A stretch of DNA of 64,000 nucleotides from contig NZ_SLZN01000005.1 in assembly GCF_004346035.1 (NCBI RefSeq), positions 62,001-126,000 of the forward strand, given 5' to 3'. The notes below the pieces were generated by a model that was given only the letters and a program-made list of their open reading frames with translations, ran no database searches and was not told where the DNA came from. The stretch's first letter is position 1; each line of letters opens with the position of its first letter. Source of the DNA: Acidomonas methanolica. Lineage in GTDB: Bacteria; Pseudomonadota; Alphaproteobacteria; Acetobacterales; Acetobacteraceae. Shown piece by piece: positions 2,602 through 55,251 of this stretch. Position numbers and translations under genes: made by a program.

Positions 2602-3204
2602 TCAGATCAGCCCCTCTTCCGCCATCGCCGCCCGGGCGGCGGGACGGGACAGCACGCGATCGCGCAACCCCACGGCCTTCGGCCAGGGCGAAAAATCGAG
2701 CCCCAGCGGCTTCTCCCAGCCCAGGACCACCGCGAGCAGCACATCCGCCTGCGAAAAACCGCTCTCAAGCAGGAATTCGCGCCCACCGATCGAGGCCTCG
2801 ACCTGCCCCATCCGGCGCCCGGCCGCCGATTTGAGCCGCGCCCGGGCGGCATCCGGCAGATCCGGCGCGAAGAGCGGGCCGAGCGCTGCATGCACATCCT
2901 CGCAGAACCCCAGCGCCTCCAGCAGCCGCGCACGTCCGATCCCCGGCGCCGGAGTGAAGGCCGCAACGCCCGAATGCTCACCCAGCCACGGCAGGACGGC
3001 GACATTCTGCGTCAGCACCCCGCCGCCCGGCAACCCGATCGCCGGCACGGCGCCGCGCGGATTGATCGCGAGATAGTCCCTGCCGTCGCCATACGTCTTT
3101 TTCCTGAGATCGACCTTTTCGTACTGGCAGTTCATCTCCGCTTCCCGGATGACGATGTGCGACGCCAGAGAACACGCGCCCGGTGCGTAATAGAGTGTCA
3201 ACAT
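2602..3204 (-). CDS. Glutathione S-transferase family protein
   Basis: Cytosolic GST-fold protein of 200 aa. The N-terminal thioredoxin-like domain shows YYAPGACSLASH, the usual beta/gamma-class active-site region, and the cis-proline segment NPRGAVPA; the alpha-helical C-terminal domain follows from about residue 85. Such enzymes conjugate glutathione to electrophiles or reduce peroxides; the substrate cannot be told. It is a single-gene unit, with a dispersed repeat 110 bp upstream of its start. Confidence 0.88.
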   Translation of the reverse strand: MLTLYYAPGACSLASHIVIREAEMNCQYEKVDLRKKTYGDGRDYLAINPRGAVPAIGLPGGGVLTQNVAVLPWLGEHSGVAAFTPAPGIGRARLLEALGFCEDVHAALGPLFAPDLPDAARARLKSAAGRRMGQVEASIGGREFLLESGFSQADVLLAVVLGWEKPLGLDFSPWPKAVGLRDRVLSRPAARAAMAEEGLI

Positions 3205-3313: not shown

Positions 3314-3429
3314 GTTCTTTTTTGAAAAAAGAACCAAAAAACTTTTTCGACCTTGCCTGGGAGTCCCCAGTGACGCTCCGAAGCCAAAGAATCAAAAGTC
3401 TTTTTGCTTCTTTTTCTTCAGAAAAAGAA
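3314..3429 (+). repeat. Dispersed ~116-bp palindromic repeat, copy 1
   Basis: AT-rich block in otherwise GC-rich DNA. Its left end is a hairpin with arms GTTCTTTTTT and AAAAAAGAAC around a single G. Its right end is a hairpin with arms TTCTTTTTC and GAAAAAGAA around TTCA (3408-3429). The two ends are also inverted copies of each other, so the unit is an inverted repeat of hairpins around a GC-rich centre. A second copy in the same orientation lies at 54457-54571. It sits between the nitronate monooxygenase stop and the glutathione transferase start. It contains no transposase. Confidence 0.85.
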
Positions 3430-3455
3430 TAAACACCCACAAATAACGAACCGCG

Positions 3456-4397
3456 TTATTTGACTTGCAGGGCCGCCAGTGCCGCCTCGTATTCCGCCTT
3501 CAGGCGCGCGACCAGAGCCGCCGCCGGGACGATATCCTTCACGGCGCCGATTCCCTGCCCTGCGCCCCAGATGTCACGCCAGGCCTTGGTTTTCCCGTCC
3601 GCCAGGGTGGCGAAATCCATCTTCGACGGATCGGCATGCGCCAGCGCCGCCGGATCGAGACCGGCGGCGACGATGCTCGGCGCGAGATAGTTGCCGAGCA
3701 CGCCCGTGAAGAAACTCGAATACACGATGTCGCCCGCACCACTCTCGACGACCATCCGCTTGTAGCGCGGATCGGCATCCGCCTCGTCCGTGGCGATGAA
3801 CGCCGAGCCGATATAGGCGAGATCCGCCCCGAGCGCGCGGGCCGCCGCGATGGACCGGCCATTGGCGATGGCGCCCGACAAGGCGAGCGGACCGTCGAAC
3901 CAGTCGCGAATCTCCTGAACCAGCGCGAAGGGCGATTGCGTTCCCGCATGACCGCCCGCGCCGGCGGCAACCGCGATCAGCCCGTCGGCACCGCGCTCCA
4001 CCGCCTTGCGCGCGAATCTGTCGTCGATGACGTCATGGAACACGATGCCGCCATAGGCGTGAACCGCCTCGTTCACATCGGCCCGCGCGCCGAGCGAGGT
4101 GATGACGACCGGCACGCGATACTTCACCACCAGCGCAAGATCCTGTTCGAGCCGCGTGTTGCTCTTGTGGACGATCAGATTGACCGCGAACGGCGCATCC
4201 CCGGGCGCAAGGGCGGAGGTGATCCGCTCCAGCCACGTCTCGAGCAGTTCGATCGGCCGCGCGTTGAGGGCCGGAAAGGACCCGACGATCCCGGCCCGGC
4301 AACAGGCCAGGACCAGATCCGGATTGGAGATCAGGAACATCGGCGCCGCCATGACGGGCACGGACAATCTTCCCTCGAACAGCTTCGGCAACGCCAT
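3456..4397 (-). CDS. Nitronate monooxygenase family flavoprotein
   Basis: FMN-dependent TIM-barrel enzyme of 313 aa in the nitronate monooxygenase/2-nitropropane dioxygenase family, which oxidises alkyl nitronates; many members act on other substrates. Visible signatures are the N-terminal PVMAAPMFLISNPDLV, the central VAAGAGGHAGTQSP (phosphate/FMN-binding glycine loop with the usual His) and GGIVFHDVIDD before it. Start ATG 4397 has AAAGGAAAA just upstream and follows the thiolase stop by 20 bp, so the two form an operon. Pairing with a thiolase and a TetR regulator suggests a role in acyl-CoA or nitro-acid metabolism rather than detoxification alone. Confidence 0.85.
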   Translation of the reverse strand: MALPKLFEGRLSVPVMAAPMFLISNPDLVLACCRAGIVGSFPALNARPIELLETWLERITSALAPGDAPFAVNLIVHKSNTRLEQDLALVVKYRVPVVITSLGARADVNEAVHAYGGIVFHDVIDDRFARKAVERGADGLIAVAAGAGGHAGTQSPFALVQEIRDWFDGPLALSGAIANGRSIAAARALGADLAYIGSAFIATDEADADPRYKRMVVESGAGDIVYSSFFTGVLGNYLAPSIVAAGLDPAALAHADPSKMDFATLADGKTKAWRDIWGAGQGIGAVKDIVPAAALVARLKAEYEAALAALQVK

Positions 4398-53485: not shown

Positions 53486-54334
53486 TCACCTCTCCCGGAC
53501 CGGGCCGGACAGCCACGCCTCCAGCGTCTCGAAAACGATCTCCCCCGCAGGGGGAGGTTCGTTGAAGATCTCGTGGTAGAGCCCCTCGAAAAGATGCAGC
53601 TCCACACGGCCAGCCGGAGCGGCGGCGGCGAAATCGATGCTGCCCTGAGGATCGACGACCCGGTCGGCCCCCGCCGCCAGCAGCAGGGTGGGCACATCCA
53701 GCGCGGGCGCGTCACGAATGCACGCCTCTCCGGCCCGGAGAAAATAATCGACCAGCGACAGGGTGATCCATCCCGTCCCGAGCGGATCGCTCCGCGCGGC
53801 CTGCCCGAAAGCGGCGTCATGCGACAAATCGGCCGGAGAAATGCCCGCGCGGAGCGGCAGACCAGGCACGACGCGGGCAAGCAGCCGCGCCACATGGCTC
53901 AGCGCGCGGCCGACGGGTAGACGCAGGGCGGGCGAGCTGAGAATCAGGCGGGGCGGGGCGACACGCCCGTCCAGCACGGCCCGGGCCGCCGTCAACCCGC
54001 CCATGCTATGCCCGAACAGCAACGGCTCATGCGGCAATTCCTGCGCGAAGGCGCGATAGACCGTCGTCAGATCGCGCGGCAGATCGTCGAGACGACGGAT
54101 CGCCCCGCGCCGCCCGGGAGAAAGGCCATGCCCCCGATGATCGTAACTTCTGACCGCATAACCGCGCGCGCGGAACCACGCCGCCAGATGGGCATAACGG
54201 CCGCTATGTTCCCCATAGCCATGGACGAGCAGAACGCCGCGCTCCGCGCCCGGAAGCGGCCAGTCCCGCCGGGCGAGCGCCACGCCATCCTCCATCACCT
54301 GCCGGTCAACTCGTCCCGGATCGTCTTCAGCCAT
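53486..54334 (-). CDS. Alpha/beta hydrolase, monoacylglycerol lipase-like
   Basis: 282-aa serine hydrolase of the Hydrolase_4 group. LLVHGYGEHSGRYAHLA carries the oxyanion HG motif, YDHRGHGLSPGRRG follows, the nucleophile elbow is GHSMGG, and LLLAAGADRVVD plus GLYHEIFNEP give Asp and His. These features match monoglyceride lipases/lysophospholipases, so it may release fatty acid for the neighbouring FadD. ATG 54334 chosen; codons further upstream run into the dispersed repeat. Confidence 0.88.
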   Translation of the reverse strand: MAEDDPGRVDRQVMEDGVALARRDWPLPGAERGVLLVHGYGEHSGRYAHLAAWFRARGYAVRSYDHRGHGLSPGRRGAIRRLDDLPRDLTTVYRAFAQELPHEPLLFGHSMGGLTAARAVLDGRVAPPRLILSSPALRLPVGRALSHVARLLARVVPGLPLRAGISPADLSHDAAFGQAARSDPLGTGWITLSLVDYFLRAGEACIRDAPALDVPTLLLAAGADRVVDPQGSIDFAAAAPAGRVELHLFEGLYHEIFNEPPPAGEIVFETLEAWLSGPVRER

Positions 54335-54456: not shown

Positions 54457-54571
54457 GTTCTTTTTTGAAAAAAGAACCAAAAAACTTTTTCGACCTGCGG
54501 TACAGTCCCCCGGTGACGCTCCGCCGCCAAAGGATCAAAATCTTTTTGCTTCTTTTTCTGGAGAACAAGAA
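54457..54571 (+). repeat. Dispersed ~115-bp palindromic repeat, copy 2
   Basis: Same orientation and layout as the copy at 3314-3429. The first 40 bases are identical, the middle shares GTGACGCTCC and CAAAG-ATCAAAA blocks, and the right hairpin has one mismatch (TTCTTTTTC/GAACAAGAA around TGGA). It lies between the divergent lipase and histidine phosphatase genes. Confidence 0.85.
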
Positions 54572-54627
54572 GGCCATCCCCACCGGCAACCGGAACAGCC
54601 CATATTTCTGACATGAGGCAGGTCAAC

Positions 54628-55251
54628 ATGCAGCCTTTTACCGTGATTCTCGTCCGCCATGGCCATGTCGAGGGCATAGAACCGCCGAGATTCCGCGGCA
54701 GGATCGACCTGCCCCTGACCGAACGCGGACGCCGACAGGCCGTCGCCACGGCTGATTTCATTTCATCCCGCTGGACGGCATCCGCCATTTATTCCAGCCC
54801 GCTGAGCCGGTGCATGGACACCGCCGAAGCCATAGCAAAAAAACAGACCGTTCCCGTGCTCCCCCTGCCGGACCTGCTCGATATCGACTACGGAACATGG
54901 CAGGGCAGGACACGGGATGAGGTCAAATCCGCCGCGCCCGAACTGTTCAAGGCGTGGATGGAGCAGCCTCACCTCACCGTCATCGACAGGGCCGAGACGT
55001 TGCAGGACGTCCAGGCCCGTCTGATCAGGGCCTTCGATCTCATGCGCAGAGCCCATCCCGACGGCACGGTCATCGCGATCGGACATGACAGCACGAACCG
55101 CATCTTCGTGAGCCTGGCCCTCGACCTGTCCCTGTCGCATTACTGGCGTCTCCAGCAAGATCCCTGCGCCATCAACGTCTTGCGCTTCGACGATGCCGGC
55201 AGCCACGTCGTCTCGATCAACCAAACCGCCCATCTGGCCGCCGACCTCTGA
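54628..55251 (+). CDS. Histidine phosphatase family protein
   Basis: 207-aa phosphatase/mutase-fold protein. Catalytic VRHGHVEG (RHG), the second phosphate-pocket Arg in YSSPLSRCMDTAEAI, the acid Glu region is unusual (LLDIDYGTWQG), and the second His is IAIGHDS. Substrate unknown; relatives include alpha-ribazole phosphatase and phosphoglycerate mutase-like enzymes. ATG 54628 has GAGGCAGG upstream; an ATG five codons earlier overlaps that site. Confidence 0.85.
   Translation: MQPFTVILVRHGHVEGIEPPRFRGRIDLPLTERGRRQAVATADFISSRWTASAIYSSPLSRCMDTAEAIAKKQTVPVLPLPDLLDIDYGTWQGRTRDEVKSAAPELFKAWMEQPHLTVIDRAETLQDVQARLIRAFDLMRRAHPDGTVIAIGHDSTNRIFVSLALDLSLSHYWRLQQDPCAINVLRFDDAGSHVVSINQTAHLAADL

Follow-up and report, generated by a model that had tools for sequence, protein, structure and literature searches.

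What kind of element is an intergenic inverted repeat whose two arms are themselves hairpins, and which recurs 51 kb away in the same DNA? The question arises from a stretch of 64,000 nt of Acidomonas methanolica (the window, which hereafter means this whole stretch), in which an initial annotation, made from the letters alone, likened such a repeat to REP/BIME or MITE units and proposed that its AT-rich arms could bind a nucleoid protein or terminate transcription in both directions. The importance of acetic acid bacteria lies in vinegar, cellulose and plant nitrogen fixation. In the open-access literature on repeats, MITEs and palindromes of these bacteria, no description of the repeat was found, and the repeats treated in the accessible text of PMC6528568 are CRISPR repeats.

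The repeat unit comprises about 117 nt, with one hairpin at its left end, another at its right end and, between them, an inner A/T stem that encloses a variable GC hairpin (Table 1). In copy 1, the left hairpin is composed of GTTCTTTTTT-G-AAAAAAGAAC and the right hairpin of CTTCTTTTTC-TTCA-GAAAAAGAAT, and the arm AAAAGTCTTTTTG, together with the T-run after it, constitutes a U-rich tract on the + strand. Most of the architecture initially proposed was borne out by the analysis: each arm forms a hairpin (I3 and I4, 10 nt each, 100% complementary), the inner arms repeat each other in inverted form (I1, 22 nt, 82%), the second copy is present in the same orientation as copy 1, and minus-strand gene starts are close by, that of the GST-like gene at 110 nt from copy 1 and the called start of the hydrolase gene at 162 nt from copy 2. 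The end of the unit, initially placed at 3429, was corrected by one position. A GC-rich centre is indeed present, but GTGACGCTCC, which had been singled out in it, falls in the most variable part of the alignment of copies and does not characterise the family. Compared with shuffled sequences, the folding z-scores of the window copies are moderate (-2.1 and -2.9 for copy 1; -1.5 and -1.9 for copy 2); of 11 other strands that were folded, 10 reached values of -4.0 to -10.9, and the remaining one, from L017, reached -2.6.

Table 1. Parts of the two repeat copies in the window and their neighbouring genes (window positions).
Feature	Position	Strand	Basis
Copy 1, whole unit (GTTC...GAAT)	3314..3430	+	BLAST family; covariance model R2 match C5:65314-65430, E 4.3e-25
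Copy 1, left end hairpin GTTCTTTTTTGAAAAAAGAAC	3314..3334	.	inverted repeat I3; compensatory changes across genera
Copy 1, inner A/T arm CAAAAAACTTTT	3335..3346	.	inverted repeat I1; partner is 3394-3406
Copy 1, central GC-rich hairpin, variable part, imperfect here	3349..3385	.	alignment and folding
Copy 1, inner A/T arm AAAAGTCTTTTTG	3394..3406	.	inverted repeat I1
Copy 1, right end hairpin CTTCTTTTTCTTCAGAAAAAGAAT, one mismatch at foot	3407..3430	.	inverted repeat I4
Copy 2, right hairpin decayed, between divergent genes	54457..54572	+	R2 match C5:116457-116572, E 1.4e-17
GST-like gene, start facing copy 1	2602..3204	-	Pfam GST_N_2/GST_C; gene call
Nitronate monooxygenase-like gene, stop codon 26 nt from copy 1	3456..4397	-	Pfam NMO; gene call
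Alpha/beta hydrolase gene, start facing copy 2	53486..54295	-	Pfam Hydrolase_4; gene call
Histidine phosphatase gene, start facing copy 2	54613..55251	+	Pfam His_Phos_1; gene call

Two outcomes had been named at the outset as speaking against a structured repeat family, namely the existence of only these two copies and stem changes that are not compensatory. When copy 1 was searched with BLAST against the window genome (3.68 Mb, 96 contigs), 42 matches in 41 separate places were obtained at E<=0.01. Iterated nhmmer searches of the stretches fetched around the BLAST matches, with a model that included antisense copies and with every place counted once, gave 46 places at E<=0.001, among which the weak ones (E near 1e-4) may be chance; these split into 24 near-full copies (at least 100 of 116 positions), 12 left parts and 10 right parts. 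The right-end motif alone was matched 25 times in this genome (up to 3 mismatches) vs 0 times for a reversed control pattern, and the left-end motif 34 times vs 6 for its control. The genome thus holds many dispersed intergenic copies, so that the first of the two outcomes did not occur. One right-part copy lies directly behind a tRNA-Ala(GGC) gene.

The occurrence of the repeat in other genomes was determined with the covariance model R2 (119 positions, 44 pairs), which is based on ten good copies and a hand-written structure; a model from an automatic alignment (R1), in which the left hairpin was lost, was dropped in its favour. R2 matches were found in 8 of 23 other Acetobacteraceae genomes and in 0 of 16 genomes of other families. 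In a wider draw, with stricter filters and at most 12 candidates scored per genome, 91 of 299 sampled Acetobacteraceae genomes and 36 of 102 genera, about a third, matched at E<=1e-6. An exact 39-base pattern was present in 53 stretches of named genomes, the isolates belonging to Gluconacetobacter, Endobacter, Neokomagataea, Nguyenibacter and Novacetimonas (one species of each was looked up, and all five are Acetobacteraceae) and the MAGs comprising one Asaia MAG and others labelled Acetobacteraceae, Rhodospirillales or Alphaproteobacteria. The exact right end of the repeat also occurs on a contig labelled as a Faecalibacterium MAG (L085, JAFULE010000099.1), which is probably misbinned. Some sites can be followed across species: a copy between dnaE and an ABC-transporter gene, which we take to be lolD, is found in two Gluconacetobacter species, Neokomagataea thailandica and a bog MAG; in N. 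anthophila, this site has only the right part. At a syntenic site of two Gluconacetobacter species, a full copy (L083:3685-3804) stands opposite a degenerate single hairpin with an A-tract (L084, ~500-600). At the Rfam gathering score, no match was obtained in five loci of relatives, and the two matches around copy 1, both to plastid psbA 3'UTR models, lie below that score.

The structure of the left hairpin is supported by covariation across genera. Among 21 distinct 22-nt left-hairpin sequences, a subset of the distinct ones that leans towards pairing, seven of nine pairs have changed on both sides and 99.5% of the cells are paired, and none of 500 shuffles reached any of five measures; the second adverse outcome, stem changes without compensation, was accordingly not encountered. 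Within the window genome alone, covariation was no better than in shuffles, because the end arms hardly vary there. The right hairpin occurs in several complementary types across the copies, the shuffle test having covered the left hairpin. Our hairpin finder, which needs at least 7 contiguous pairs and whose counts therefore lean towards pairing, returned no left hairpin for 10 of the 145 copies and no right one for 5. Among 14 orthologous pairs of copies, 3 base pairs were changed on both sides and kept, 11 were changed on one side and kept, and 23 were changed on one side and broken, the random controls giving 0.8, 10.6 and 48, respectively (copies of atypical length were excluded here, as well as from the analyses of central parts and U-tracts below); compensatory changes are thus few among these pairs.

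How the two ends relate to each other is a separate matter. Their outer four bases are complementary in 18 of 131 copies, and since the ends are mostly not mutual complements, two local hairpins are favoured over one long hairpin. A single long hairpin formed from both arms is the computed energy minimum for several copies, both window copies included, and according to these models both forms may occur. In the genome G020, the flanks of the copies have the consensus AGGGAAGCG and CGCTTCCTTCCT, and in the predicted fold of L114 the outer stem formed by such flanks closes a four-way junction. An outer stem as a feature of every copy was considered and rejected, as it is conserved in G020 and elsewhere hardly above chance.

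The placement of the copies was determined relative to genes identified with a simple custom hexamer caller. As the loci had been selected for holding a copy, controls were taken from the flanks of the same loci. In G020, gaps with a copy were convergent in 24, tandem in 17 and divergent in 1 case, and gaps without a copy in 11, 92 and 18 cases, respectively (convergent, 24/42 vs 11/121, Fisher p 1e-9). The corresponding numbers were 27, 28 and 3 vs 25, 204 and 43 in a named multi-species set (27/58 vs 25/272, Fisher p 3e-10), where the enrichment persisted with one copy per orthologous site (18 convergent, 20 tandem, 3 divergent; 18/41, p 2e-7), and 15, 20 and 7 vs 40, 209 and 44 in the window genome (15/42 vs 40/293, p 0.001). 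These counts include 9 copies missing from the extracted set and leave out one copy cut by a contig end; copies overlapping a called gene by >45 nt number 3 in G020, 3 in the named set and 7 in the window genome, and copies without a neighbour on both sides, 3/45, 6/64 and 3/46 in the same order, have no context. The median distance from stop codon to element is 20, 10 and 14 nt in G020, the named set and the window genome. Copy 1, close behind the stop codon of the NMO-like gene, fits this gene-end pattern, and copy 2, between diverging genes, does not. Divergent gaps are not avoided in the window genome (7/42 vs 44/293, copy 2 being among the 7), and copy 2 is probably, like some others, a stray and decaying copy devoid of a terminator-like role.

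Furthermore, the copies carry a signal that resembles an intrinsic terminator, namely a stable hairpin followed immediately by a U-tract. Eighty of 114 copies were examined, giving 160 element strands; this signal was predicted on 159 of them with a hairpin of dG<=-10 and on 138 with dG<=-20. Shuffled copies, produced by a home-made approximation of shuffling, contained it in 39/60 cases at dG<=-10 and in 12/60 at dG<=-20, being often terminator-like themselves because the sequence is T- and A-rich; at element-free gene 3' ends it was found in 51/475 and 29/475 cases, respectively. On 154 of the 159 strands, the stem ends at 0.7-0.8 of the length, at the transition from the inner stem to the T-run of the far end hairpin. 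A simple terminator scan around copy 1 and L112, the two places tried, flagged only flank stems or the foot of an end hairpin and not the cores. The layout for termination in both directions envisaged by the initial annotation is supported by the predicted hairpins and U-tracts and by the enrichment in convergent gaps.

Taken from sequence data, our preferred reading, to which we give a probability of about 0.55, is that the repeat acts as a non-coding, lineage-amplified, bidirectional intrinsic-terminator-like 3'-end module of Acetobacteraceae. Its core, consisting of A-tract, GC hairpin and T-tract, is readable as a terminator from either strand; it is flanked by the two AU-rich end hairpins, and in some genomes the outer stem can close a four-way junction. 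The repeat sits right behind stop codons, chiefly between convergent genes; RNA polymerase would stop at it, the end hairpins might take up supercoiling or shield the 3' end of the RNA, and the copies would spread by duplication or gene conversion. The shared copy beside dnaE, the right-part copy behind the tRNA-Ala gene, the compensatory changes of the left hairpin and the likeness of copies within a genome also speak for this reading. The A-tract, GC hairpin and T-tract on both strands and the frequent position between convergent genes are shared with known bidirectional intrinsic terminators, from which the repeat differs in that its copies belong to one dispersed, conserved family, have additional hairpins at their ends and, in some genomes, are enclosed by an outer stem. 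To our knowledge, ordinary terminators are not homologous copies of one another.

The copies might alternatively be purely selfish MITE-like elements of no use to the host, moved in trans by a putative transposase with a preference for terminators or the 3' ends of genes. In line with this, copies within a genome are alike: the nearest neighbour of the central part comes from the same group in 113 of 131 copies (27 expected), and the likeness of the centres amounts to a score of 0.256 per nt within groups vs 0.001 between groups. These groups lump Gluconacetobacter species and four MAGs, so that orthologs add to the likeness there, but not in G020 or the window genome, which hold paralogs only. 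Two copies on contig C7 of the window genome, at 71650 and 77204, lie 5.5 kb from each other in different flanks and share an identical sequence of 119 nt, and copy number varies among genomes of one genus (e.g., g72 vs g112). In addition, more distant syntenic sites in G. diazotrophicus, some of them apparent phage-gene junctions, are without the copy found in other species or in the window genome, their flanks being too diverged for clean joints. Close species, however, have orthologous copies at the same sites, and the compensatory changes of the left hairpin likewise argue against an element of this kind. Target duplications, proposed in the initial annotation as a check, were not seen: among sets of 45, 44 and 18 copies, no 3-10 nt repeat of consistent size and place was detected. 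The fetched DNA (2.3 Mb, with overlapping parts included twice) contained no longer parent element with the same ends, and of 174 left ends, the 8 with the nearest right end 160-4000 nt away represent five longer copies (164-181 nt) and, in three cases, two copies next to each other. The Y1 transposase (PF01797), the sole transposase family searched, was not found in 24 of 25 genomes, including the window genome and G. diazotrophicus, and was found in G019, with 5 of 14 control genomes positive in the same search. The repeat therefore resembles bacterial MITEs, as initially suggested, in being small and dispersed, in its multiplication with copies alike within a genome, and in its inverted ends (I1, I2; the outer four bases pair in only the 18 of 131 copies mentioned above), but not in target duplication or a parent element in the fetched DNA. 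Overall, we regard a purely selfish nature as unlikely, albeit a serious competitor. Spread may occur by duplication with gene conversion or by a transposase of another kind.

The position of the copies in the chromosome differs between genomes. In G. diazotrophicus PA1 5 (G040; chromosome of 3,887,492 nt, 3.89 Mb), R2 detects 14 places at E<=0.001, and the 10 strong ones lie within 1.49-2.76 Mb (1.27 Mb; mean 2.12 Mb; arc p 0.00025, Rayleigh p 0.0001), around the chromosomal parB gene at 2.149 Mb (2148955) and the minimum of the cumulative GC skew near 2.14 Mb (from 40 samples of 20 kb each). When the four weaker matches are added, the smallest arc of all 14 is not significant (p 0.10), and that of 12 of the 14 gives p 0.0013. 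In the same chromosome, dnaA lies at 1160, about half a chromosome from parB and the skew minimum, and a stretch of 20 kb near that minimum (L160, 1944001-1964000) has 46.5% GC vs 60-72% in other samples and is likely a foreign island. Clustering near the terminus was rejected as a description, given that skew and parB place the cluster on the origin side; a search with a dif-site pattern yielded three weak matches, none of them in G. diazotrophicus. Contigs C7 and C5 make up 9.5% of the window genome and contain 18 of its 25 right-end matches (p 1e-13 for contigs picked post hoc), 13 on C7 (147.5 kb, 4% of the genome; L008-L014) and 5 on C5. C5 also carries the best parB match of this genome (C5:189215-190102, L018:1215-2102), which lies about 63 kb past the window end and has two repeat copies nearby, at distances of about 4 and 8 kb. 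Mapping C7 on the G. diazotrophicus samples gave only three matches, which does not place the contig in the chromosome. The 51 strong copies on a 3.9-Mb contig of G078, by comparison, are not clustered (Rayleigh p 0.70), although a single large gap between them is free of copies (p 0.011), which speaks against a general rule.

Two readings build on these positions. The broader one, which we consider improbable, describes an old, undescribed three-hairpin/four-way-junction repeat family of Acetobacteraceae that would be a mobile or homogenised bidirectional terminator and, in some genomes, would be kept or multiplied around the origin and parB. The narrower one, for which the probability is lower still, regards the copies as DNA sites for chromosome organisation near the origin, that is, AT-rich cruciform-capable repeats bound by a putative nucleoid or segregation protein and kept around parB. 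The clustering in G. diazotrophicus and the concentration on C7 and on C5 with its parB match are consistent with such sites; the lack of clustering in G078, the unplaced contig C7 and the loss of significance for the smallest arc of all 14 G. diazotrophicus matches speak against them, and the placement at gene ends is explained without a role at the origin. The broader reading, if true, would tie the termini of convergent transcription units to the organisation of the chromosome.

That the copies are REP/BIME units moved by a RAYT transposase is highly improbable: the repeat shares with such units its palindromic and extragenic nature, its position at gene 3' ends and the occurrence of whole and half copies, but it is too long, its end hairpins lack a GTAG or CGTC foot in the alignments, Y1_Tnp was found in 1 of 25 genomes only and not in the window genome, and, according to the accessible text of PMC3733652, Acetobacteraceae have no CGTC repeats. 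Most end hairpins instead start with GTTC or CTTC and end with GAAC or GAAG, which pair. The likeness is to short palindromic extragenic repeats that are foldable as RNA and form lineage-specific families, as the accessible text describes these (PMC3733652); REP/BIME units have 20-40 nt and a tagged foot, whereas the present repeat has about 117 nt and three hairpins without a tagged foot, and RAYT was not found in 24 of 25 genomes. A similar kind of intergenic repeat is represented by ERIC/RU-1 and other enterobacterial repeats, which the accessible text of PMC2759123 describes as 127-bp intergenic repeats with stable stem-loops. According to the same text, these have TA ends and a TA target duplication (PMC2759123), whereas for the repeat described here no duplication of 3-10 nt, the sizes covered by the scan, was seen; they also occur in different hosts, the comparison being one of descriptions.

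The repeat could be the Acetobacteraceae counterpart of the CGTC-type palindromic repeats that are reported, in the accessible text, to be lacking there (PMC3733652). As a single covariance model suffices for its detection, it might be of use for the annotation of 3' ends, as a source of terminator parts and for strain typing. It also raises the questions of how a short structured repeat spreads without RAYT, and of why copies gather on the parB side in some genomes and not in others.

Some copies in Gluconacetobacter are longer still. Three of them, of 195-203 nt (L086:5058-5252, L086:2676-2878 and L104:6723-6918), lie in apparent phage genes, and their central loop has an extra palindrome (GTATTCC...GGAATAC in L086:2676), which may represent another repeat nested within the first one.
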